A stretch of 22,298 bases of DNA from a virus: the IMG/VR virus record IMGVR_UViG_3300040806_001368, positions 1 through 22,298 of that record, one strand, 5' to 3'. Numbering within the stretch: position 1 is the first letter of the stretch; each line of letters opens with the position of its first letter. The notes under the pieces were generated by a model. That model was given only the letters and a program-made list of their open reading frames with translations. It was not told the origin of the DNA and searched no databases. The position numbers were made by a program, and so were the translations under genes. This document shows, in pieces, positions 3,029 through 19,493 of the stretch.

Positions 3029-3036
3029 TATAAATA
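3029..3036 (+). promoter_or_regulatory. T4-type late promoter octamer before gp25 gene
   Basis: Exact TATAAATA followed by ATTAAA and the ATG of the gp25 gene at 3043: a 6-base spacer. With the T4 late start position (about six bases past the octamer) the mRNA would begin at or within one base of the start codon. Confidence 0.85.
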
Positions 3037-5310: not shown

Positions 5311-8300
5311 GCCAACCTTTCAAATATTATCAGATACTGAGTTATATTCTAATCAATTAACTCCACTACGGGTATCATCGATACCATCCGATGAATATAG
5401 TTCGAACTACTATATATGGGATTTTGGTGATGGTAATCGATCAATTGGTCAAACTGTTGAACATGTTTATGAAACCGTTGGTGATTTTGATATAACATTA
5501 ACACAATACCTTCCAAGTGGTGAACCTGTTAAATCGGAACCACAAACAGTAACTGTTAGAAATTTAATCCCAAATCTTATGGAATGGGATAGTGGTTCTT
5601 ATAGTGGGGGATCAATAACCGCATCTGTTAAAAATGATACAGCATTTATTGCCAATGTTTATAACAGTTGGCAACAATATTGTGAAGACTCATTTCTACA
5701 TTTATACGCTGAAAATTCAAAGAGCATCCCTTTTGATATTACAGATAAAAGAATACATTTAAAACCAAATTGGAGATTTTTAGATACTGATGACAATGTG
5801 ATCGAAACTGTTACATTATCCCAAGATAAAATATATGCTCAAAAAATAAATGGAGAAATTTATCTAGATACAAACGAATCTAGTGACAGTGTATTTGTTG
5901 GGGTTAGTTCACAAGCGAAATTCTTTTTTGTTGATGACACGCCATCTGGTATTTCTCCAGATGAAGATTATTTACCGTCAACTATCATTGTAACGCAAAA
6001 TTTATCTGGTGTTTATGGGGATGAAAAATTTAAAAAAGAAGATTATTTACAATACCCATCATTGATAAATTCGGTGTTTGTTGATAATATTGTTCCAGAA
6101 AAATTATCCATAACATCAAATGGTGTATTCGATATTTCTAATATTAAATTCATTAATACACAAATACCTTACAATATTAGATTAGTAGATTCAAATAATA
6201 ATTTCATTAAAACCGATCCTATTGAATCTGATGTAATAAGTTCACATGAAATTAATATAGGGTTTATAGGGGATGTTTCTAAAGAGAGTTTACCATCATT
6301 TGAAGGTAATACATTAGAAAGATTTGTCCCAGATTTCAGTAATCTCGGTGGGTTTTTTGAATCTTATTTTATAGTTACACAACCAACAACAGAAGCCGTC
6401 ACTCTAACAGCATCAACATCTATCGATTACTCACTTAATAAGATATTGACGAGGTATGGTATATTCTCTGATGAAAACTCAAATAAAATTTATAGAACAT
6501 CATTTATTGATGGGTTTGATAAAAGCTATATAAGAAAAGATTCCGATGTAATAGGTAATGAATACGATGGGGTTACTTCAAATAAATTTGGTGCATTGAT
6601 CGATACAAATTATAATGCTGTATTTTTAGATTCAGATGATTCACGAATTGAAATATATGATACTTCATTTGAATTGATTAGCTCAATTGAATTATCGAGT
6701 TATGATGAATTTATTTTATCTTCAGATGGTTTAACGTCATATCGGGGGGTGTCATCTCCTGCTCAAATACAAATGGATAAAGTTGGCGATTATTTTATAA
6801 CCCTTCACGATACTGCTGATTTATTATACGTTACTGGTGATGAGGTCAAAAAAATAGATTTATACCCGCAAATAAGCGGGGAGTTTGTTACATTAAGTGG
6901 TTCACCTATTATATATAATGGTGGTATAGAATTGTCGAGTTATGTCTATATTGATAATGAAGATGGATTTGTCTATCAACCAGCAGCATTGGATATTTTA
7001 AGTGACAATAAAACGATATATATAGCATATACAGGTGGTGGATATAATTTTGTTCAAAAATATGTGTTGGATAGATCAACTGATCCATATACGTTATCAT
7101 CTATCGGGACGATTGGTTTATCAAGTGATGTTCCTGTTGATATGTTATCTAATAGAAGTGGGGATTCGTTGTATATTTTAGCTACAAATTATTATAGTGG
7201 GGAGAGCTATATTAAAAAATATTCAACAATTGATAATTCATCAAGCAGTAATGCTATAGGGTATGACGCTGAATTTATAACCATTGATACAAATCAAAAT
7301 GTTTGGTCTATCGTTAAAAAACACGATGTTGGGACAGATTATAATAGACTTGTAGAAATAGATTCTACAAGTAATGAGGTGATCGTACATCCATATGAAA
7401 AAGAAATTGAAAATGAAAATTATACATCAATATCCCCAGAATTATCAACATCGTGGATAGTTATTACATATTATTGGGAACAAACCAGTGGTGATGATTT
7501 GGATACTAGAACTTCCATAATACAGGATGGTGAGTTTTGGAGTGGGGTTGAGGTTGGATACGATAGGGATACATATGTTGGTAACAGTGCAACTGATTAT
7601 GTTATGCTGTGGGGTGGGGATAATACAGCATCTGGATATGAGAGCGTTGTTGTCGATGTTGCCAATTTAAAGGAAAATGGGGGTTCCGATTATATGTCCA
7701 TTCGTTTAGCGGCACATTGGTTTGGTTCAATGGGAAACGGGGCTGTGACAATTGGTGTAAAAACATATAGTGGGGGAACTATAAATATATCAAACAACAC
7801 AATAACCGTAGTTGGGGGAACGTTATTAAATACGTATTTATCTGATGTTGTAACTATTACAGAAACCAACGATTCATTAGAATCGGGTCAATTTATTGGA
7901 GAAGTTCCCATAGAGTTAGTTACGGGGGGGATAGGCGGCTCAGTTGTACATGGGTATAAAAATATAGGTGGCATAACGGGTGACTCATATGGACATGTGT
8001 GGGTTTTAAATAGCGATGATGATGTTGTTGATATTATTGATGTAGACGATACCAATAATACCACAAAAATCACAATAAATGAAGATATCGACAATGAAAA
8101 AAATAAATATGTCGCATATGGTGATTGGAATGGGTTTAGGTGGTTTAATAAATTCGGATTCGACGGAACAATTATTACATATGATTTGAGTGGGCAATCA
8201 GCGCCATTTAATATTTACCCACAAGATAAATATAATATCCAGAAAATAAATGAAGATTTTGATGCTACTGAAACATTGAAATCATACAGGACAACTGATT

Positions 8301-10177
8301 TAATGTTAAATTATGATAATCTTTTTGATAATTTCTTGGGTAGCATATATGGAAATAGATTAGATGATGGGACATATATCGGTAAAAACATCTATGAAAA
8401 AATTGCAAATTTTGTAATGAATCATGGTGACATTGAAACTTGTTCTATTGATGCACTTGAATCGTTTTGTGAGGAAACTGGTATCGTATTCGATACAAAA
8501 TTAAATCTTCCGAGAGATATTAAAAGAATTGTTGATTTATTTAGTATTAAATTTAAAAAACTTTGGGGCGAAGATTATAAAACTGGATTCATTGAAGACT
8601 ACCGTGGGGATGAAATAAACACATTAACATATGAGGTATCTGCTGATCCGCAAACTAAGTTCATTGCCAAAGAAAAATTTAATAATTATTATTCAATAAT
8701 TACACCACTGATGATAGATGGTTTAAGTTCGTATCCAATAAGTTCTTACGAGCAATCTTGGGGGTGGGGTTTATCTATTCCAACTGGTGGGAAACTTGAA
8801 GATTATTACGAGTTTTACGAGTTCAATAGTGTTGATGAAGATAGGTTGATTTCTATTATTGATTGGGATAACCCATTAACTGATAGTAGTATTAAGCCAT
8901 TATCATCATTCGGTAATTATATGGATGAGGGTGGAATTGTCTCAGTATCGATAGGTGATAAATTGCGCAGGGGGTTAGATTTATATGTTACTGTTCAAGC
9001 AGAAGATGGTGATGGTGATGGTGATGGTGATGGTGATGGTGATGGTGCGCCTAAAACATATCACGTAACCGCCAAAAAAATCCCACTTGGGGCTGGGATT
9101 GTTAGTAGTAATATTGGGGCAACAACGGTGGGTGATTGGGCTGTATTTACACCATCCAACATGGATGACGATGGTATAACATCATATAACCCAACAACTG
9201 AGGAATTCCAAGTTAGTGCTCCAATCCCAGACGGAAATGGTAGTTTTCTACACGAAACAACCATTGGGGATTGGGCTGTATTTGGTGCGGATCGTTCAGA
9301 TTATTTCGTTGCATATAATCCTATAACGGATACTTATAAGGTGTCTCCACAATATACGACATCATCGTTCAAAAAAACAGAAGGTCTTACGGTCGTTGGG
9401 GATTATGTAGTATTTGCTCCACATGGTGATAGTAAAATCACTGCGTGGGATGTTGAGAATAACACACTACTAACTAATACTGATATACCTACAGCCGAGT
9501 TGGAAAATTTCTGGTCTGTTGCCGCAACAACTGTGGGGGATTGGGCTGTGTTTGCTCCACATTGGGGTGAGTATATTTATGCATGGAACCCAATTACAGA
9601 TACGGTAGTAAAGTCCGAATTCATTACATTAAATAATGGTTGGGATGAGTTTGTGGATGCTGTAACTGTAGGAGATGTCGCGGTTTTTTGGCCTAAATAC
9701 CACACCCATATTGTGACATTTAATCCAGTTAGTAACACCCTCCGACAAACTGAGCTTCCATACGTTCCAGATAATATTTCGTCGATTGGATACCATACCG
9801 TAACCAATGTGGGGGATTGGGTAGTATTTCCTCCGTGGACTAATTCGGCGGGAGGTATAAAGGATAGTCGTATATTATCATATAACCCAATAACTGATAC
9901 ATTCCAATACTCTGAGCCATTATCATATGTTGATGCAGCATTCACTGGCTCAACCAATATTGGTAATTGGGTTGTATTTTCTCCGTGTGATACGGGATAC
10001 TTTATCAATGCGTATAACCCTATTGATAATATACTATTGGAAAGCACCGTAGATGAGACTGAGTGGGCTGGTTATGCTTGGGTTTATAGTGAGGGTATAA
10101 CAGCGGTTGGGAATGTTGCTGTAACTGCACCATACTTTAATGGTGATATAATTCAATATGAAATCATTGAAGTTTAG
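5303..10177 (+). CDS. Giant multidomain baseplate protein with PKD and beta-propeller regions (possible gp7 equivalent)
   Basis: A 1624-residue protein starting inside the gp6 stop region. Domains seen: a PKD fold (about 5-88; WDFGDG at 39-44, HVY at 54-56); beta-rich regions to about 350; propeller-like strand repeats to about 990, interrupted near 715-845 by a domain with DLDTRTS and WGGDNTASGYESVVVDV; a helical segment (about 1000-1110) with LFDNFLGSIYGN, a Cys-containing helix and KRIVDLFSI..KLWG; a linker of seven Asp-Gly pairs (1235-1248); and a C-terminal propeller (about 1250-1624). The propeller shows eight repeats of the type T-V-G-D-W-A-V-F-x-P alternating with YNPITDT; the terminal QYEIIEV and initial TYHVTAKK would close the ring. 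Gene order gp25-gp6-this matches T4 6-7 and P2 W-J-I, so the helical segment may be the wedge core and the propellers surface appendages. That role is inferred. Confidence 0.7.
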   Translation: MDKPTFQILSDTELYSNQLTPLRVSSIPSDEYSSNYYIWDFGDGNRSIGQTVEHVYETVGDFDITLTQYLPSGEPVKSEPQTVTVRNLIPNLMEWDSGSYSGGSITASVKNDTAFIANVYNSWQQYCEDSFLHLYAENSKSIPFDITDKRIHLKPNWRFLDTDDNVIETVTLSQDKIYAQKINGEIYLDTNESSDSVFVGVSSQAKFFFVDDTPSGISPDEDYLPSTIIVTQNLSGVYGDEKFKKEDYLQYPSLINSVFVDNIVPEKLSITSNGVFDISNIKFINTQIPYNIRLVDSNNNFIKTDPIESDVISSHEINIGFIGDVSKESLPSFEGNTLERFVPDFSNLGGFFESYFIVTQPTTEAVTLTASTSIDYSLNKILTRYGIFSDENSNKIYRTSFIDGFDKSYIRKDSDVIGNEYDGVTSNKFGALIDTNYNAVFLDSDDSRIEIYDTSFELISSIELSSYDEFILSSDGLTSYRGVSSPAQIQMDKVGDYFITLHDTADLLYVTGDEVKKIDLYPQISGEFVTLSGSPIIYNGGIELSSYVYIDNEDGFVYQPAALDILSDNKTIYIAYTGGGYNFVQKYVLDRSTDPYTLSSIGTIGLSSDVPVDMLSNRSGDSLYILATNYYSGESYIKKYSTIDNSSSSNAIGYDAEFITIDTNQNVWSIVKKHDVGTDYNRLVEIDSTSNEVIVHPYEKEIENENYTSISPELSTSWIVITYYWEQTSGDDLDTRTSIIQDGEFWSGVEVGYDRDTYVGNSATDYVMLWGGDNTASGYESVVVDVANLKENGGSDYMSIRLAAHWFGSMGNGAVTIGVKTYSGGTINISNNTITVVGGTLLNTYLSDVVTITETNDSLESGQFIGEVPIELVTGGIGGSVVHGYKNIGGITGDSYGHVWVLNSDDDVVDIIDVDDTNNTTKITINEDIDNEKNKYVAYGDWNGFRWFNKFGFDGTIITYDLSGQSAPFNIYPQDKYNIQKINEDFDATETLKSYRTTDLMLNYDNLFDNFLGSIYGNRLDDGTYIGKNIYEKIANFVMNHGDIETCSIDALESFCEETGIVFDTKLNLPRDIKRIVDLFSIKFKKLWGEDYKTGFIEDYRGDEINTLTYEVSADPQTKFIAKEKFNNYYSIITPLMIDGLSSYPISSYEQSWGWGLSIPTGGKLEDYYEFYEFNSVDEDRLISIIDWDNPLTDSSIKPLSSFGNYMDEGGIVSVSIGDKLRRGLDLYVTVQAEDGDGDGDGDGDGDGAPKTYHVTAKKIPLGAGIVSSNIGATTVGDWAVFTPSNMDDDGITSYNPTTEEFQVSAPIPDGNGSFLHETTIGDWAVFGADRSDYFVAYNPITDTYKVSPQYTTSSFKKTEGLTVVGDYVVFAPHGDSKITAWDVENNTLLTNTDIPTAELENFWSVAATTVGDWAVFAPHWGEYIYAWNPITDTVVKSEFITLNNGWDEFVDAVTVGDVAVFWPKYHTHIVTFNPVSNTLRQTELPYVPDNISSIGYHTVTNVGDWVVFPPWTNSAGGIKDSRILSYNPITDTFQYSEPLSYVDAAFTGSTNIGNWVVFSPCDTGYFINAYNPIDNILLESTVDETEWAGYAWVYSEGITAVGNVAVTAPYFNGDIIQYEIIEV
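9005..9046 (+). repeat. Tandem hexamer (GATGGT)x7 encoding an Asp-Gly linker
   Basis: Seven perfect copies of GATGGT in frame, coding seven Asp-Gly pairs (residues 1235-1248) between the helical/beta part of the giant baseplate protein and its C-terminal propeller. Because the unit is two codons, slippage changes linker length without breaking the frame. Confidence 0.95.
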
Positions 10178-10248
10178 CAATTTCATATCGAAAACCACAC
10201 TGTAGATTTTTAGTGGTAAGTATCTTTGATGATGGTTCTCGCCAATAT

Positions 10249-10256
10249 TATAAATA
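10249..10256 (+). promoter_or_regulatory. T4-type late promoter octamer
   Basis: Exact TATAAATA followed by ATTAAA and the ATG at 10263 (6-base spacer), identical in layout to the gp25 promoter. It probably drives the small gene and phoH behind it. Confidence 0.85.
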
Positions 10257-10262
10257 ATTAAA

Positions 10263-10484
10263 ATGAGCAATGTAGATAATATTATAAACGAATACTTAAA
10301 GTCTAGAGTAGTGACTAAAAGAGAGATGCGCCCAAGGGGTTTTGATTTACATGATAACGTTGATAAACTAATTAAGTTACAAATTAAAAAGTTTAAACGA
10401 GAAGGTATGTCGAATCAAAAGATTATATCTAAATTTTCAAAGTTGATACCTTTTTTGGTTGACGAAGTTGATAAAGAAGTATAG
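10263..10484 (+). CDS. Small charged helical protein, unknown
   Basis: A 73-residue protein I do not recognise. It is predominantly helical and basic in its middle (KLIKLQIKKFKREGMSNQK, about 35-53) and acidic at the end (LVDEVDKEV). The phrase KFKREGMSNQKIISKFSKL looks like a small helical, possibly helix-turn-helix-like, unit but no family can be assigned. It starts 6 bases after a perfect late octamer and is followed by phoH after 15 bases, so the two are likely co-transcribed. The start is well supported by the promoter spacing; no ribosome binding site is visible. Confidence 0.6.
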   Translation: MSNVDNIINEYLKSRVVTKREMRPRGFDLHDNVDKLIKLQIKKFKREGMSNQKIISKFSKLIPFLVDEVDKEV

Positions 10485-10499
10485 TCTAAAGACTAATTT

Positions 10500-11252
10500 A
10501 TGACAAAAAAGAAAACTCCGAGAGATTATCGTGAAGAAGATGTTATTCCTCACGAATTAGAAGTTAAAAAACCAAACTTTAAAATTAAAACGTTAAAGTT
10601 TAAAAGCCAAAAGCAAAAAGACTTTTTTGATTTATGTCGAGACGAAGATGTTAAGTTGCTAGTGTGTGACGGACCCGCTGGAACGGGTAAGAGTCTCTTA
10701 GCACTGTATTCCGCATTAAAGTCTCTTAAATCTGGGGTGTATGATCGTATAATGTATGTTCGATCACCTGTAGATAGTTCAGATGGTGGTATTGGGTTTT
10801 TACCTGGGGATTTAAATGATAAAATAATTAATTACATGATACCGTTAGATGAAAAGCTGTCAAAGCTCTTAGACTACAACGATATCAAATCATTATATAA
10901 AGATGATTTTATAGAATTTACCGTTAATACATTTATGCGTGGTAGAAGTATTGAAAATACAATATTGATTATTGATGAATTTCAAAATAACACCATGCAA
11001 GAAGCATTAACTCAAATTTCACGTATTGAAGAAACTTCCAAAATCATTGCCATTGGAGATCATATGCAATCCGATATCGGTTTAAAATCCTGTTTAACCA
11101 AAGTTACAGCTATGTTTAAAGATCGACCAGAAGCAATCCAAAATGGCGTTGCTACATTTGAGTTTAACAATGAAGATATTGTAAGAAGTAAACTTGTTAA
11201 ATATATTGTGGGTGAATTTGAACGCACGATGAAAATGTCAAGAGGCGGATAA
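10500..11252 (+). CDS. phoH: PhoH-like P-loop ATPase
   Basis: A 250-residue PhoH-family ATPase. Walker A is GPAGTGKS (58-65), Walker B is LIIDE (156-160), followed by FQNNTMQEALTQISRIEE (161-178), the characteristic PhoH segment (Q-N-x-T-x-x-Q/E...), and GDHMQSD (186-192). PhoH proteins are related to RNA-helicase-like ATPases; phoH is common in phages, especially marine ones, and its role there is unsettled (phosphate stress or RNA metabolism have been proposed). Length is typical of phage versions. The first 35 residues are lysine-rich. It follows the preceding small gene after 15 bases and probably shares its late promoter. Near the end a basic tail (MKMSRGG) is seen. The family call is firm, the physiological role is not. 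Confidence 0.92.
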   Translation: MTKKKTPRDYREEDVIPHELEVKKPNFKIKTLKFKSQKQKDFFDLCRDEDVKLLVCDGPAGTGKSLLALYSALKSLKSGVYDRIMYVRSPVDSSDGGIGFLPGDLNDKIINYMIPLDEKLSKLLDYNDIKSLYKDDFIEFTVNTFMRGRSIENTILIIDEFQNNTMQEALTQISRIEETSKIIAIGDHMQSDIGLKSCLTKVTAMFKDRPEAIQNGVATFEFNNEDIVRSKLVKYIVGEFERTMKMSRGG

Positions 11253-12023: not shown

Positions 12024-12623
12024 ATGATAAATGAACATTTTGAAGAAGAATTAAAAATTCTAGAAAAAACAGTTGATCCAACTGAAGAAGATAACGATTT
12101 AATCATTCGTGATTACATCCCTGCAATTAGAGAAATCTTAAAGATTGCAGCAAAACAGGGTCATTCTGGAATGTCGATTCAATATTATGCTGCATCAATA
12201 GCTAACACTATTAAAAATGCGTTGTTGTTGAAACCGTTGTCACCATTAACTGGTGAAGATAGTGAGTGGGTAATCCATGATTGTGATGGTATGTATGCGC
12301 AGAATAATAGAAATTCTGCAATATTTAAAGACGAGAAAGATAGTAAACCATATTTCTTAGATGCTATTATTTTTCAAGGTGAAGATGAATATGATACATT
12401 TTCTGGATCAGTTGGTGGTATTTCTAGTAGACAATATATTAAATCATTTCCATTTACGGCTAAGACGTTTTATATCGATGTTTATAGAGAATTGTATGAC
12501 CCAAAAAAACATGGAGAAGGTGATGGTGTAGAAGTATCTGTGTGTGGTGATGGTGATTATGTTTACTTTATTAAAGATGAAAAACAATTAGACGAAGTTT
12601 GGGAATATTATGATAGATTCTAA
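12024..12623 (+). CDS. Conserved phage protein of unknown function (PLTGEDSEW type)
   Basis: A 199-residue protein. It contains a helix with KQGHSGMSIQYYAASIANTI (44-63), then LLLKPLSPLTGEDSEW (67-82), NNRNSAIFKD (93-102), and a Thr/Phe-rich strand FPFTAKTFYIDVYRE (142-156). The combination 'HSG...L-x-PLTGxDxEW...N-x-R-x-S-x-x-F' is one I associate with an uncharacterised family widespread in phages; I know no function for it. It is soluble and acidic at the N-terminus. The following small gene starts 14 bases before its stop, so translation is probably coupled. Family resemblance is recalled only, and the protein could not be tied to a pathway. Confidence 0.65.
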   Translation: MINEHFEEELKILEKTVDPTEEDNDLIIRDYIPAIREILKIAAKQGHSGMSIQYYAASIANTIKNALLLKPLSPLTGEDSEWVIHDCDGMYAQNNRNSAIFKDEKDSKPYFLDAIIFQGEDEYDTFSGSVGGISSRQYIKSFPFTAKTFYIDVYRELYDPKKHGEGDGVEVSVCGDGDYVYFIKDEKQLDEVWEYYDRF

Positions 12624-13446: not shown

Positions 13447-13806
13447 ATGATAGACAAAAACCAAGAACTGGAAAAACTTATTTTTGATAAACTTATTCAA
13501 TCAACTGTTGACATCTACACTTATGATGATAATAAAGGAGTTGTATTATTAAAATCTGGGAAGTTACTAAATTTTAACATTAAGATTCCATTTTTATATT
13601 TTATGATGGAGTATAAATCAAAAATGCGAGATTTCCCAATACCCCAACCATTTAAGTTTAAATGGGATGGTGAGAAATTGATTATGTCATATGAATTAAA
13701 AGATTCGGTAAATAATAAAAAAATCGTTGACAGGATGGTAGAAATCGGTAAAGATAGTGAATCGAAATTTTTCGATAAGAAAATTTATATAAAACCGATT
13801 TTATAA
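13447..13806 (+). CDS. Unknown 119-residue protein upstream of the helicase
   Basis: Not recognised. It has an N-terminal helix (NQELEKLIFDKLI), beta-like segments (VDIYTYDDNKGVVLLKSGKL, 21-40) and an aromatic, lysine-rich middle (IPFLYFMMEYKSKMRDFPIP, about 47-66); the end is basic (KKIYIKPIL). No signal peptide. Its stop and the helicase start share a base (TAATG), so the two are likely co-translated and may act together; a helicase partner or loader is a reasonable but unsupported guess. The start lies 5 bases after a late octamer. Confidence 0.6.
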   Translation: MIDKNQELEKLIFDKLIQSTVDIYTYDDNKGVVLLKSGKLLNFNIKIPFLYFMMEYKSKMRDFPIPQPFKFKWDGEKLIMSYELKDSVNNKKIVDRMVEIGKDSESKFFDKKIYIKPIL

Positions 13807-15482
13807 TGGATAAAGACCTATTTAAACACTTCCCAGAGGGAAAAGACCCTAGAGAAAACCAAGTAAAACTACTACTACAGCTTCAAGATGCTTTTAAGAG
13901 TGATAAAAAGTTTGTAGTCGTTAATGCCCCAACAGGTGTCGGTAAAAGCTTTTTGGCAGCAACAATAGCTAACTCCAGTGATAACCCATCGATTGATTTT
14001 AAGCAGTTTGTAAATTCATATAGGATATGGAACCCAGTAGATGGTAAAGATGAGGCATATAAATTTCCACACTATGGCGCTGCTGTTTTGACTGTAACAA
14101 AAAATCTTCAAGATCAATATACAAAAGATTTTGATAATTTACATCTACTAAAAGGTAAAACAAATTATCTATGTGAATATGATGGTGAATCAGATGTTGA
14201 AAGCGCACCATGCACTAGTCAGAACTCTTTAAAACGACAGTGTTGGGATTGTGACCGCTGCACTTATTATACTGATAGGAATAATAGCATATCTAATCAA
14301 TTCGGTGTGTTTAATTATGACGTTTGGTTGCACCTACCAGATCATGCTCGTAGAAAAGAAATCTTAATTTGTGACGAAGCTAGTGAGATTGAGAATGTTA
14401 TTATCAGTTTCTTTTCATTAGATATAAGTTATGAATGGGTTGAAAAATTATTAGAGGTTCAAAAATATCCGAGAATACCTTCAGAAGAACCAAACAAAGC
14501 TTATGATTGGTTGATGGAATTAAAAGAATTGATTGATGCAACTATTGATGAAAATAAAGAATTATTGGAATCACCAAAACATAAAAAGAATAAAGGTTTA
14601 AAATTCCGCCAAAAGGGATTAGAAAGATTGCAAAATGATTTTAGCAAAGTGATTGGTAATTTTGCCAAGAATGGTGAAAATCAAGATGCGGTTGAATATG
14701 TTATTGAAAGGGTTGCACCAGATAGATTTAACAAGAATGTTAAAGAGGGCGTTACATTTACACCATATCGCGCAAATAAGTTAGCAAAAAAATTATTTAA
14801 TAGTGTCGAAAAGGTAATGTTCTTGAGTGCAACGATTATCGATCATAAAAAAGAAATGAGTGATTTAGGTATCGAGCGTGATGAATACACATATATTGAA
14901 GCACCTAGCGCATTTGATCCAATGAAGTCACCTATCTATGTTGTTGGTAATTTTCCATTGACATATAATCTAATGGAAAAAAATCTACCAAAGGTTACAG
15001 AAATTACTAGTAGAATTTTAGATAAACACTCGAAACATAAGGGGTTGATCCATACTGTAAGTTTTAAAATCACAAAAGCTGTTGAAGAGGGTATCATTAA
15101 TGATAGGTTGATATTCCGTGATGATGGTAAAACAAATGATATCTTACTGAAGGAACATAGTGAAAGTGATGAACCTACTGTTATGGTTAGTCCTTCAATG
15201 AGTCATGGTGTTGATTTAAAGGGTGATTTGGGGCGTTTTCAAGTGATTATGAAGGTTCCATACCTTCCACTTAGTAACAAACGTATAAAGCGTTTAAGTA
15301 AAGAGGATTATAAATGGTATTTAAATAAAACTCTATCGTCACTTGTTCAAATGGCTGGTCGATGCACCCGCACTGATACAGATAAAGCTGTAACTTATAT
15401 TGTTGATGGGGCGGCAGCTAATTTATTAAAACGAAATTGGAACAAACTACCTAAATATTTTAGGGATAGGATCAAAGTATAA
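13806..15482 (+). CDS. XPD/DinG-like superfamily 2 helicase with Cys cluster
   Basis: A 558-residue helicase. Walker A is APTGVGKS (41-48); a Cys-rich insert follows (C123, C136, C146, C149, C152), as in the iron-sulphur domain of XPD/DinG helicases; motif II is CDEAS (189-193), with Ser in place of the usual His; then SATI near 345, SPSMSHGVDLKGD (about 460-472) and the arginine-finger motif QMAGRCTR (515-522). These enzymes unwind DNA (5'-3' for DinG), often on R-loops or repair intermediates. Length is shorter than E. coli DinG (about 716). Expressed from a late promoter through the coupled gene in front. Its TAA stop overlaps the next late octamer (15478-15485). The family call is good; the substrate is unknown. 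Confidence 0.85.
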   Translation: MDKDLFKHFPEGKDPRENQVKLLLQLQDAFKSDKKFVVVNAPTGVGKSFLAATIANSSDNPSIDFKQFVNSYRIWNPVDGKDEAYKFPHYGAAVLTVTKNLQDQYTKDFDNLHLLKGKTNYLCEYDGESDVESAPCTSQNSLKRQCWDCDRCTYYTDRNNSISNQFGVFNYDVWLHLPDHARRKEILICDEASEIENVIISFFSLDISYEWVEKLLEVQKYPRIPSEEPNKAYDWLMELKELIDATIDENKELLESPKHKKNKGLKFRQKGLERLQNDFSKVIGNFAKNGENQDAVEYVIERVAPDRFNKNVKEGVTFTPYRANKLAKKLFNSVEKVMFLSATIIDHKKEMSDLGIERDEYTYIEAPSAFDPMKSPIYVVGNFPLTYNLMEKNLPKVTEITSRILDKHSKHKGLIHTVSFKITKAVEEGIINDRLIFRDDGKTNDILLKEHSESDEPTVMVSPSMSHGVDLKGDLGRFQVIMKVPYLPLSNKRIKRLSKEDYKWYLNKTLSSLVQMAGRCTRTDTDKAVTYIVDGAAANLLKRNWNKLPKYFRDRIKV

Positions 15483-15485
15483 ATA
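15478..15485 (+). promoter_or_regulatory. T4-type late promoter octamer overlapping the helicase stop
   Basis: Exact TATAAATA containing the TAA stop of the helicase gene (15480-15482), followed by ATTATTT and the ATG at 15493 (7-base spacer). Confidence 0.8.
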
Positions 15486-15492
15486 ATTATTT

Positions 15493-16521
15493 ATGAGATT
15501 AATAACGAAACAAGAGGGGTTTGCGTTAAAATACGCAAGACAAAAAGAATTAGCAGAATATTCTGACAAGTATCAACTCCATTGTGGAGGGGCTTGTGCT
15601 CATTATGGAAAAATACCAAAGGGGTGCGCAAGTTGTCTTTTTTCTGATGTTTATGCAAATGGGTCGTTTTTGGGGTATACGTTTAATTTACCCAACGCAT
15701 GTAATGCAAACTGTAAGCATTGTTTTACCCCACTTGGGGATAAGCCACATGAAAGAACATGTAACCCTAATTTTAAACTTCCCGATGGTTGGAGCAACAT
15801 TGTTGATGCGGAATTACTTAATGGTAGTATGAGTCCCATAAATGAGATAGTTAAGTCAAGTAACAATAAAAACCCAGTTGCATTGATTTCTTTTAGTGGG
15901 GAGGGGTCAGAACCCCTCTTATATTATCCTGTAATTGAAAAGGTTGTTAAACATTATAAGGAAAATGTAGAACCATATATCGATAAACCTATAACATATA
16001 AATTATATACTAATGGTAAATTATTAACAGAAGAAATGATCGAAAAGTTAGTAAATATCGGTATCAATGAGGTAAGGATAAATTCATCTGCATTTAATTT
16101 TCATGACATAATTATAGAAAATATGAGAAATGCATGTAAAGCATTTCCCGTTGTTACTAGTGAATTGGGGCTATTCCCTAAATACTATGATGATATATAT
16201 AGGTTAATGCCAGTATGGGATGAAATGGGGTTAACTCACTTGAGTTTATGCCAACCTAAGTATAAAGATAAGAATGTGTTTAAACAAAATATTGACTTAT
16301 TTCCTAAAGATGCAGTATGTTATCCAGCGTCGAATGATTGGCTCATGGTTGATGATGGGGGTGAAGCAGAAAAAATGATAAAATATGCTATAGATACTAA
16401 TATATCATTTTCTATCATAGATTGCAATTGCTTTGTGATGAATCAAGAAGACGGTGGTAATGGTATATCTAAACAATTGAATTATTTAGATTTTAATGAT
16501 GTTATCGAAATGAACGTATAA
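15493..16521 (+). CDS. Radical SAM enzyme with extra cysteine clusters
   Basis: A 342-residue radical SAM protein. The SAM-binding iron-sulphur motif is CNANCKHC (C70, C74, C77). FSGEGSEP (134-141) is the glycine-rich SAM-binding strand and YTNGKLLTEE (172-181) the typical later strand. Ahead of the core lies CGGACAHYGKIPKGCASC (C31, C35, C45, C48), and near the end are C253, C276 and the pair C311/C313, which could ligate further iron-sulphur clusters. Such enzymes use a 5'-deoxyadenosyl radical to modify peptides, RNA or small molecules; the class here is not identifiable. Alternatives include a peptide-modifying or an activase-type enzyme. It has its own late promoter 7 bases upstream and is convergent with the oxygenase/fibre operon. 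Late expression points to a virion or host-modifying role, which is inference. Confidence 0.85.
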   Translation: MRLITKQEGFALKYARQKELAEYSDKYQLHCGGACAHYGKIPKGCASCLFSDVYANGSFLGYTFNLPNACNANCKHCFTPLGDKPHERTCNPNFKLPDGWSNIVDAELLNGSMSPINEIVKSSNNKNPVALISFSGEGSEPLLYYPVIEKVVKHYKENVEPYIDKPITYKLYTNGKLLTEEMIEKLVNIGINEVRINSSAFNFHDIIIENMRNACKAFPVVTSELGLFPKYYDDIYRLMPVWDEMGLTHLSLCQPKYKDKNVFKQNIDLFPKDAVCYPASNDWLMVDDGGEAEKMIKYAIDTNISFSIIDCNCFVMNQEDGGNGISKQLNYLDFNDVIEMNV

Positions 16522-16525
16522 TACG

Positions 16526-16551
16526 TAATATTACCCTATAAAGTAATATTA
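16526..16551. repeat. Inverted repeat at a convergent gene junction
   Basis: TAATATTAC (16526-16534) and GTAATATTA (16543-16551) form a 9-bp A+T-rich stem with an 8-base loop, between the stop of the radical SAM gene and the end of the minus-strand gene (it overlaps that gene's last codons). A bidirectional terminator is possible, but neither strand shows a T run after the stem, so this is a structural observation. Confidence 0.5.
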
Positions 16552-17042
16552 TCGGGTATCATTAGCACCAACCAAATTTGATCGGTATCGGACTTATCGA
16601 TCCTATGGACATCTGCGCTATTAAATTCTATAGCAGAATATTTTGCGACTTTGATTTCTTTTTTATCAGATTTAAAAATAACGCTGTTATTATCTGTCAT
16701 TGCTATGCAAAAGAATTTACCAATTGTGTTCTTTTGCCACCCATCATAATCCATCCAATCCAAGAAATCACCCTTTTTGAATTGTAGTAAACTTGCGGAT
16801 AAGATTAAATCATTTAAACCTATTTTAGATGATAAACCTTCAATTTCATCAAAAAGGTCATTATTTTCTAATATCTTTTTAAAGGATATGAAATCATACT
16901 TGGAAATATTATATCTTTGGTGAGAGTTCCCAACTCTTACATCAATTTCATCGACTGGTTTAAATCCAATATTATTTGCTAATGTAATTATAGATTCACA
17001 TTCTTTTTTAATATCTTTTAATTTATGTATTTTTCTATTCAT
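16536..17042 (-). CDS. Possible degenerate 2OG/Fe(II) oxygenase-like protein
   Basis: A 168-residue protein, last gene of a minus-strand operon. The C-terminal half looks like a double-stranded beta-helix: LQFKKGDFLDWMDYDGW (86-102), IGKFFCIAMTDNNSVIFKS (107-125), VAKYSAIEF (132-140), DVHRIDKSDTDQIWLVL (144-160). It can be laid against the neighbouring 182-residue oxygenase: the strand with the metal motif there (PHVD) aligns with DWMD here, so the first metal His is Trp and only the Asp (D98) is kept, while a distal His (H146) remains. It may therefore be inactive, use another ligand, or belong to a cupin-like fold. It starts 10 bases after the oxygenase stop. The alignment was made by eye and is tentative. 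Confidence 0.45.
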   Translation of the reverse strand: MNRKIHKLKDIKKECESIITLANNIGFKPVDEIDVRVGNSHQRYNISKYDFISFKKILENNDLFDEIEGLSSKIGLNDLILSASLLQFKKGDFLDWMDYDGWQKNTIGKFFCIAMTDNNSVIFKSDKKEIKVAKYSAIEFNSADVHRIDKSDTDQIWLVLMIPDNITL

Positions 17043-17052
17043 AATTATTTAA

Positions 17053-17601
17053 TTAAAATAACATTACCAAACTATAACGCAATTTATTTACAGGTGGAAC
17101 CCAATGTATAGGGGTTGTCCCCTCAAAGTGATACCCTACCCCCTTTTCATCTCTAAAAATCTTTACTAATCCATTTTTTACTGCATCATCTAAACATGTA
17201 TTGTTATAATATACATCTGGATCACCAAAAACTAATTTGTTTTCCGAGTTAGTTTGTAATGGAACTATTATAGTGTGTAAACTCATCCCTTTGTCAACAT
17301 GTGGTGGTATGAATGACCCCTGTTCATATTTATTTATTTGAACCTCTTTTACAGGGAACCCATCTATCTCTACGTTGACAAAATATTTTTCCCACAAATC
17401 GGTTAAAGATTTTGGGCTAACTTCTGCTGCATAATATTTACCCAAATCGCCACGAACACTATAATTGGGATAATACTTACTCCTATCTATAAAAATATTG
17501 GGGTTGTTATGGATATACTCCAACAACTCATCACAAGTGTTCACAGATAAGAAATCTACATATTTGTGCAACAAATCTTTTATCTCATCTAAATGTGCCA
17601 T
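17053..17601 (-). CDS. 2-oxoglutarate/Fe(II)-dependent oxygenase
   Basis: A 182-residue protein with the 2OG/Fe(II) oxygenase signature: NKYEQGSFIPPHVD (90-103) gives the iron-binding His101 and Asp103; a second beta strand region (LHTIIVPL, 108-115); and IHWVPPVNKLRYSLVM (165-180) supplies the distal His166 and a 2OG-binding Arg175, nine residues later as in prolyl-hydroxylase-like members. Such enzymes hydroxylate protein side chains, nucleobases or small molecules; the substrate is unknown here. T4-like phages of aquatic hosts often carry several. Its ATG shares a base with the stop of the tail-assembly-like gene in front (TAATG on the minus strand), placing it in one unit with two fibre genes, which makes a fibre protein a candidate substrate (inferred). 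Confidence 0.85.
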   Translation of the reverse strand: MAHLDEIKDLLHKYVDFLSVNTCDELLEYIHNNPNIFIDRSKYYPNYSVRGDLGKYYAAEVSPKSLTDLWEKYFVNVEIDGFPVKEVQINKYEQGSFIPPHVDKGMSLHTIIVPLQTNSENKLVFGDPDVYYNNTCLDDAVKNGLVKIFRDEKGVGYHFEGTTPIHWVPPVNKLRYSLVMLF

Positions 17602-18124: not shown

Positions 18125-18727
18125 TTATATTGCGAATGTATCAGTTCTAGCCCATACATTACCCGCATTAACAACAAATACACTAACAGATGATGTTTGT
18201 CTATATGAAGTTCCATTGCTATAATGCGACAACTGATACCCCCAATTTACTATTACCTTACTCCCAACAGGTAAATTCGGGTATATTTGTTTGGCGGCAT
18301 TTATTACACTAGTATATGAATTGTTAATATTTGATCTACTTGGGTCTGTTGCAAATATTGATCCAGCCAAATTGACATAGTATATATTATCTTTTGAGGT
18401 ATCATAATCAGTAATTCTACCATCAATATAATCTTTTATCCTTTTTTCTGTCACAATAGCCGAATCTGAATTAAACTCGGAACTATCACTAGAGTCCAAT
18501 AAATCAATTTCATCTGGCACGTCACTTGTTTGTGATAAATTTCCAATAACTTTTTTGCCCCCAATAGTGTCTAATTGGTTTATTGGTAAAGTTATATCAC
18601 TTTTCTTAATTTTATGAGATGTTGCCCCTCTTTGAATAAAGAAGTAGTCCGTTCCCCTATTTTTGGGATCGGCTTCCTGTAAAATATTGATAGTATCAAT
18701 TTGTGTATTTGGTGTAACCTGTGGCAT
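18125..18727 (-). CDS. Tail-fibre-like protein (shorter paralogue)
   Basis: A 200-residue protein. It shares with the 248-residue upstream gene a layout of two blocks: an N-terminal DYFFIQRGATSHKIKKSDI (27-45) and a middle KVIGN...SDVP (59-71) followed by DSAIVTEKRIKDYID (88-102). The C-terminal 90 residues are beta-rich and different (SIFATDPS, SKVIVNWGYQLSHYSNG, SVFVVNAGN). The N-terminal block would anchor to the virion or a partner fibre and the variable C-terminus would bind host or be the tip; this is inferred from shared-anchor/variable-tip logic. It lies 5 bases after the upstream gene. The second of a likely fibre pair in a late minus-strand operon. Confidence 0.65.
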   Translation of the reverse strand: MPQVTPNTQIDTINILQEADPKNRGTDYFFIQRGATSHKIKKSDITLPINQLDTIGGKKVIGNLSQTSDVPDEIDLLDSSDSSEFNSDSAIVTEKRIKDYIDGRITDYDTSKDNIYYVNLAGSIFATDPSRSNINNSYTSVINAAKQIYPNLPVGSKVIVNWGYQLSHYSNGTSYRQTSSVSVFVVNAGNVWARTDTFAI

Positions 18728-18732
18728 AATAT

Positions 18733-19479
18733 TTACGCAAAGACCCTAAATCTAAATTGCCAATTTGCTGGACTGGAAGCTGGGTCAAATGTAGTACCAT
18801 CGCTGTATTTGGCATAGTTTAATTGGTTAAGAGTTTTATATTTAATAGTTGTATTATTTACAATTAATGTAGAATATGCTGACCCATTATCACTTTGGCT
18901 GTTGCTTATAATAAGTTCATCATCTTGTGAAAATCCATTATTAGCAATTAAACATTTGTAGTATAACACTACAATCTGTGGAGTTTGTGTAAAACCAATA
19001 CCGCTAAGATCACCCGTAACAATATTCCCAGGTAAAGGCGACCCGCTAAATTCACCATCAACCGATTCTGAAAATATAGAAGGAAGTGAATCAATATAAT
19101 TAATCACGGCATCACTAGTCGGGATATTATCATCACTCGCATTAGTTAAATTTGTAATCACATTTACTTGACTTGGAACATCGCTACTATCCGTTGTGTT
19201 GCCGATCACTTTCATACTGTCGATATTTTGTAGTTTTGAAAGCTCTACAGCAGCGTCTGCTAATTGTGCAGTGTCTACACCACCCGCCTTTATGTTTAAT
19301 TTATTAGAAGTTGATTCGATTGTAGAATCATCTGGTAACCCTGCAACCAAATCCGAGTATTTAAATTTATATGATTTAAGGTTCTTCTGAATCAAAAACA
19401 AATCTGTAGAGCTTGCGTCCCCAAGGTTTGATAGGTTATTGATTAATTTTAACTGTGCAGTTGTAGTCATTGAAGTCAT
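18733..19479 (-). CDS. Tail-fibre-like protein (longer paralogue)
   Basis: A 248-residue protein with the style of phage tail fibres: a stalk-like phrase GGVDTAQLADAAVELSKLQ (67-85) as in trimeric fibre shafts, then KVIGN (90-94), SDVP (99-102) and TSDAVINYID (121-130), followed by a beta-rich C-terminus (about 135-248). The N-terminal DLFLIQKNLKSYKFKYSDL (26-44) matches the equivalent block of the next gene. The start at 19479 is supported by an exact late octamer with a 6-base spacer; another ATG three codons later (19470) is possible. It heads the minus-strand operon and faces away from the large gene at 19536, the two sharing a 56-base divergent promoter region. Confidence 0.7.
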   Translation of the reverse strand: MTSMTTTAQLKLINNLSNLGDASSTDLFLIQKNLKSYKFKYSDLVAGLPDDSTIESTSNKLNIKAGGVDTAQLADAAVELSKLQNIDSMKVIGNTTDSSDVPSQVNVITNLTNASDDNIPTSDAVINYIDSLPSIFSESVDGEFSGSPLPGNIVTGDLSGIGFTQTPQIVVLYYKCLIANNGFSQDDELIISNSQSDNGSAYSTLIVNNTTIKYKTLNQLNYAKYSDGTTFDPASSPANWQFRFRVFA

Positions 19480-19485
19480 TTTAAT

Positions 19486-19493
19486 TATTTATA
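19486..19493 (-). promoter_or_regulatory. T4-type late promoter octamer, minus strand
   Basis: Exact TATAAATA on the minus strand followed by ATTAAA and the ATG at 19479 (6-base spacer). It is back to back with 19522-19529, 28 bases apart. Confidence 0.85.

Follow-up and report, generated by a model that had tools for sequence, protein, structure and literature searches.

The window analysed here is a 22,298-base IMG/VR virus record of T4-like character, encoding gp25-like and gp6-like baseplate wedge proteins, PhoH and a DinG/Rad3-like helicase. The gene for a radical-SAM protein, P0001, sits between the baseplate and helicase block and a pair of fibre-like genes that start 1.6 kb downstream of it. 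The features of this segment are as follows.

13806..15482, (+): DinG/Rad3-like helicase, upstream (PHROG 2488, E=7e-94), 65-66% identical in the related loci L016 and L017; conserved left border of the slot
15478..15485, (+): TATAAATA, a T4-type late promoter motif that shares bases with the stop codon of the helicase gene and is separated from the P0001 ATG by 7 nt
15493..16521, (+): radical-SAM protein P0001, 342 aa from ATG to TAA (Pfam PF04055 and family profile)
16536..17042, (-): right neighbour, a convergent gene for a 168-aa protein matching phrog_14616, a PHROG family with no assigned function
17053..17601, (-): probable 2OG-Fe(II) oxygenase of 182 aa, a weak call (Pfam E 0.03-0.08, PHROG 61 E=1e-4)
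18125..19479, (-): two appendage- or fibre-like proteins (200 aa and 248 aa) whose N-termini look alike, called by appearance only

The two fibre-like proteins have no Pfam or PHROG match, and no sugar genes were recognised in the window. Among PHROG families, the putative oxygenase best matches one annotated as DNA endonuclease (E=1e-10), an annotation that may be wrong. No terminator is claimed between the convergent stop codons, because the hairpin at 16510-16565 is no better than shuffled sequences (z=-1.2).

The slot that follows the helicase is an exchangeable, variable cargo site, because L017, the helicase of which is 66% identical, holds a different radical-SAM cassette there: its helicase is followed by a 197-aa ORF, two radical-SAM/SPASM genes, and then GT-like and aminotransferase-like genes. 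Different radical-SAM cassettes are thus exchanged among related T4-like phages at a shared genomic site. The L017 cassette, at 6674-11226, occupies the position of the P0001 gene, and its aminotransferase-like ORF is of the PLP type. Elsewhere in the window, 12024-12623 (+) encodes a Tad3-like type I Thoeris inhibitor (Pfam, E=1.4e-21); the corresponding stretch of L016 and L017 holds a co-chaperonin-like ORF of 143 aa instead.

The TATAAATA motif occurs 15 times in the window against 7.5 expected, which is mildly above chance by count alone. For seven of the 15 copies, a called start codon on the matching strand follows at a distance of 8-30 nt, a placement that only 1.3% of positions provide (p=3e-10), and because of this enrichment we regard the motifs as real T4-type late-promoter-like signals. 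The private late promoter that a first-pass annotation had proposed for the P0001 gene is therefore well supported. Copies at 3029, 10249, 12971, 13434, 15478 and 19522 (+) and at 19493 (-) end 5-7 nt before start codons, with a spacing that is typically TATAAATAATTAAA-ATG and is conserved in L016 and L017, where TATAAATA, 6 nt and an ATG are kept before two orthologous genes. Almost no window gene carries a Shine-Dalgarno sequence. Transcription from T4 late promoters starts about 6 nt after the motif; if it does so here, the spacing suggests that late mRNAs in this phage group would be nearly leaderless. Late action of P0001 fits its promoter, but the promoter does not imply the role in virion assembly that had been read into it, because an identical motif also precedes genes of the PhoH and helicase block.

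P0001 belongs to the radical SAM superfamily: the Radical_SAM model (Pfam PF04055) matches residues 66-232 with E=5.8e-8 and 33.5 bits against a gathering cut-off of 29.5. Cysteine accounts for 3.8% of its residues (13/342) as compared to 0.68% in the remaining window proteins (p ~1e-6). The positions reported previously for C31-x3-C35-x9-C45-x2-C48, C70-x3-C74-x2-C77, C253, C276, C311 and C313 are all exact; C90 and C215 are further cysteines absent from that list. The motifs of the protein map onto the gene as follows.

15583..15597, (+): C31 and C35, private cysteines, not conserved across the family alignment
15625..15636, (+): C45-x2-C48 (KGCASC), the GC-x2-C motif, 19/19 in the family alignment; predicted half of the auxiliary site
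15700..15723, (+): C70-x3-C74-x2-C77 (CNANCKHC), the canonical radical-SAM cluster motif (Pfam and alignment)
15910..15915, (+): E140-P141 of the GGEP-like SAM-binding motif, EP invariant in 19/19
16006..16017, (+): YTNG motif, residues 172-175, with Y, T and G family-invariant
16249..16431, (+): stretch with C253, C276 and C313, none of them conserved in the family alignment, around C311
16423..16425, (+): C311, in a D-C near the C-terminus, 19/19 and also aligned in the profile match; predicted third ligand of the auxiliary cluster

As the sole query, P0001 found no relative in IMG/VR and generic cores only in GTDB contigs, plasmid searches gave no useful match, and a search of 199 genomes returned two Clostridia-sample members of the family described below, matched through residues 152-314. 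Two usable seeds came from a tblastn search of phage records, namely MT836297 and LR756501, a phage of 735 kb. The alignment of their proteins with P0001 extends from GC-x2-C through the C-terminal D-C. Profiles of these seeds led to six IMG/VR contigs, and later to one more, and to relatives in two genome samples, one centred on Acidobacteriota (3 of 247 genomes) and one on Bacillota (9 of 299). A profile of 18 relatives built without P0001 gives P0001 107 bits over residues 4-320, spanning both the GC-x2-C motif and the C-terminal cysteine. The control radical-SAM ORFs of the retrieved loci (generic proteins, including those of L004-L009 and L018-L023, which were used only as controls) score at most 45 bits, and those inspected match the core only. 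By this full-length profile match, P0001 is a member of what we define here as the GC-x2-C radical-SAM family, a family not specifically named by any of the NCBIfam, Pfam or PHROG models used in this work, and one to which a phage cargo gene is hereby tied.

P0001 is a very divergent member of this uncharacterised family of giant phages and bacteria. Its identity to each relative in the alignment is 16-24%, and its end branch of 3.04 changes per site is the longest in the tree, in which its placement is without good support. The giant-phage clade (LR756501, or L003, and the IMG/VR contigs L010-L015 and L060) shares with P0001 the six invariant cysteines described below, EP, YTNG, ExR, E224, an aligned C-terminal DC-xxx-M and a similar length (~320 aa), but is only 21-24% identical to it; P0001 furthermore has extra residues behind GC-x2-C, ahead of C70 and within GGEP, where it reads SGEGSEP and is longer by two residues. 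The bacterial relatives from the Bacillota- and Acidobacteriota-centred samples (L024-L034) have the same six cysteines, the core motifs and a full-length profile match. Unlike P0001, they are larger (~370-520 aa, some with a C-terminal extension) and reside in cellular genomes among unrelated neighbour genes. The family is thus common to phages and bacteria. MT836297 (L002) is a phage by record, yet its radical-SAM protein groups with Clostridia-sample proteins in the tree, so this DNA may be of bacterial origin.

Four residues that are invariant across the 18 relatives are replaced in P0001 (P226G, N251S, S288D and S312N in the 19-sequence alignment), and the giant-phage clade is among those from which P0001 differs in this way. 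These near-invariant positions played no part in defining the family, and P0001 does not conform to them. Since these family-shared residues are absent, the chemistry of P0001 may differ from that of its relatives.

Exactly six cysteines are invariant in the 19 aligned proteins, down to 16% identity: C45, C48, C70, C74, C77 and C311. C31, C35, C253, C276 and C313 are private or scattered. The N-terminal four-cysteine group noted at first is thus present as spaced but is not a unit, since only C45 and C48 of it are conserved, and the alignment rules out C31 and C35 as half of a conserved four-cysteine cluster. Likewise, the expectation of extra cysteines is borne out by C45, C48 and C311 and not by C253, C276 and C313, so that an observation of many cysteines is narrowed to three residues.

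From the six family-invariant cysteines we infer two iron-sulphur clusters. Because only C45, C48 and C311 are conserved besides the SAM cluster, the auxiliary site is likely formed by these three cysteines and split between the N- and C-terminus, rather than by an N-terminal four-cysteine cluster, and the second cluster possibly has one free iron. N251S and S312N adjoin the non-conserved C253 and C313, respectively, and since two of the four replacements thus lie beside private cysteines, the auxiliary site of P0001 may have been remodelled. Taken to its extreme, this would mean that P0001 founds a branch of its own, in which a cluster on two N-terminal cysteines and one C-terminal cysteine has its coordination, and with it the reaction, changed by C31, C35 and C313, and that the phage uses the enzyme late in infection to put a new type of chemical mark on virions or the host surface, a proposition that we find distinctly unlikely.

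Assignment of P0001 to a named class was not supported by scores. None of the NCBIfam models reaches its cut-off for P0001 or three of its relatives. Clustering with a nucleotide-metabolism enzyme such as QueE or an anaerobic NTP-reductase activase, named earlier as grounds for refuting the first-pass annotation, finds no counterpart: no such model is above its cut-off, P0001 has no QueE or NrdG match up to E=10, and in the relatives NrdG-type models align with nothing beyond the shared core. The QueE/NrdG, viperin, SPASM and tetraether synthase (Tes) identities were all rejected on scores, the last with 7.2 bits from NF045702 against a cut-off of 450. Structure prediction adds little for P0001, the AlphaFold2 model of which has a mean pLDDT of 61, with values below 50 in the N-terminal cysteine segments, is too weak for cluster geometry and retrieves generic barrels only in Foldseek. 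The model of a giant-phage relative (pLDDT 75) has the viperin, SuiB, BlsE and MoaA barrels as its nearest solved folds, with TM ~0.4-0.5, which corresponds to the common core.

The surroundings of the relatives point to glycans in part of the phage clade. In L010, L012 and L013, family-2 glycosyltransferases lie on both sides of the radical-SAM gene, and a HAD phosphatase, a GHMP kinase and an NAD epimerase are nearby (Pfam calls for L013, ORF order for L010 and L012); these loci are close kin, so their context amounts to about one observation. In L003 the radical-SAM gene follows a glycosyltransferase, and no glycan genes flank it in L060, L062 and L011. The sugar or glycan clusters, at 1430-10117 in L010 and 1484-10870 in L013, also include a shikimate-dehydrogenase N-domain. 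A terminase-like large protein with an apparent intein-like insertion near its N-terminus is found beside the radical-SAM gene in L003 (4766-7033), L060 (3546-4906) and L062 (6995-9265). Bacterial relatives have as neighbours DMSO-reductase-type operons (L046-L048), B12-radical-SAM-like genes (L040) or nothing shared, and because these neighbours vary, the family is not tied to a single substrate. Region 1858-12872 of L040 holds three long ORFs starting with MDICLVNMP- or MDICLVYMP-like sequences, B12-radical-SAM-like by eye, together with two more radical-SAM-like ORFs and the GC-x2-C radical-SAM gene.

Combining these findings, we favour a reading, to which we assign a probability of roughly 0.4, in which P0001 is a late-expressed tailoring enzyme that acts on a surface or virion glycan, a sugar building block or an appendage protein. 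In its first step, as the motif suggests, the C70/C74/C77 cluster would bind S-adenosylmethionine and cleave it to the 5′-deoxyadenosyl radical, a reaction that is well established for the radical-SAM superfamily. In the second step, predicted from the six invariant cysteines, C45, C48 and C311 would hold the second iron-sulphur cluster and thereby draw the two ends of the protein together across the barrel opening. With three protein cysteines as ligands, one iron would stay available to the substrate or to another small ligand, a layout known from MoaA, TYW1, MiaB and LipA; alternatively, a private cysteine (C31, C35 or C313) may complete the cluster in this phage. The third step, the weakest of the three and drawn from gene surroundings, would be the abstraction of a hydrogen atom from one of the targets above; a surface or virion glycan or an appendage protein is proposed with modest confidence as the putative substrate. 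The outcome would be a change of progeny virions or of the infected cell's surface late in infection, brought about by an exchangeable cassette in a variable cargo slot beside fibre-like genes.

That P0001 modifies a peptide or protein, as the first-pass annotation had suggested, is possible, and we consider it rather unlikely. The auxiliary cluster would then serve to bind or oxidise a peptide, with cross-linking, epimerisation or oxidation of a virion protein or of a small peptide of the phage as the outcome. The best NCBIfam core matches are indeed peptide or protein maturases, but they cover the shared core only, at ~31 bits against curated cut-offs of 300-500, and the SPASM domain (PF13186) has no match in P0001. 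Matches to solved structures include TigE and the anaerobic sulfatase-maturating enzyme, again through the common core only. L026, a relative from bacteria, is surrounded by B12-type radical-SAM-like genes, a kind known from peptide clusters, and the nearby fibre-like proteins would offer virion targets. No candidate precursor peptide or precursor-like small ORF was found beside the P0001 gene, which led us to abandon a local RiPP reading.

The members L032, L033 and L034, which directly adjoin molybdopterin-oxidoreductase-type genes, suggest a role in which the enzyme matures or activates a cofactor or a metalloenzyme. These members form a clade of their own (100/100) that is far from P0001 in the tree, and no molybdoenzyme or cofactor genes were found in the window, so that this role is very unlikely for P0001. 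The GC-x2-C genes that adjoin DMSO-reductase-type molybdoenzyme operons in L046, L047 and L048, a separate clade, encode a possible maturase of these enzymes.

We see only a slim chance that the SAM cluster alone matters and that P0001 is a degenerate cargo gene with a functionless auxiliary site: the long end branch and the four replaced residues would fit such decay, but all six invariant cysteines, EP, YTNG, E193, R195 and E224 are retained in an open frame that starts at a promoter. The slightest probability goes to a viperin-like enzyme making or removing a modified nucleotide. In its favour are a pVip profile match (E=5e-8), 30.8 bits from the NCBIfam viperin model and the Foldseek result that viperin barrels come nearest to the giant-phage relative model (TM ~0.46-0.52). 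Against it, the 30.8 bits compare with a cut-off of 180 and span residues 66-187 only, a TM near 0.5 is also given by other radical-SAM barrels, and GC-x2-C and C311 are invariant in the P0001 family, whereas viperins are not known to have a second cluster.

The favoured late tailoring reading has a partial parallel in T4-like phages of another group. The host-recognition islands of pelagimyophages, as described in PMC7029224, are variable and combine radical-SAM cassettes with glycosyltransferases and tail fibres; their position differs from that of the P0001 slot. In the COG2108/MJ0021-like radical-SAM proteins of archaeal and bacterial origin, which may be similar to P0001, GC-x2-C presumably precedes the SAM motif and is accompanied by a CSS at the C-terminus.

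Auxiliary cysteines ahead of the SAM motif are not new in themselves, and the earlier statement that such N-terminal placement matches no known class holds for the arrangement and not for the position. They precede the SAM motif in LipA (Cx4Cx5C), TYW1 (Cx12Cx12C) and MiaB/RimO (PMC5352715), as well as in tetraether synthase, in which C73, C77 and C80 plus a His hold the auxiliary cluster (PMC9433317). Tetraether synthase (Tes/GDGT-MAS, 7TOL) resembles P0001 in that its Cys motif immediately precedes the SAM motif, and a profile alignment with it extends across both motifs (E=1.7e-8); its His ligand and further metal sites (PMC9433317) set it apart. P0001 has no above-cut-off match to the MoaA, TYW1, MiaB/RimO or LipA families, which, as described in PMC5352715, carry an auxiliary cluster on three cysteines with a free iron. 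Their three cysteines lie in one segment, whereas P0001 has two at the N-terminus and one at the C-terminus, a combination that none of LipA, TYW1, MiaB/RimO and tetraether synthase uses as described in these sources. Should one iron of the second cluster be free, as a site with three cysteines suggests, the GC-x2-C family would join the few radical-SAM enzymes that bind the substrate or a sulphur source there, with the giant-phage proteins as tractable representatives of such enzymes.
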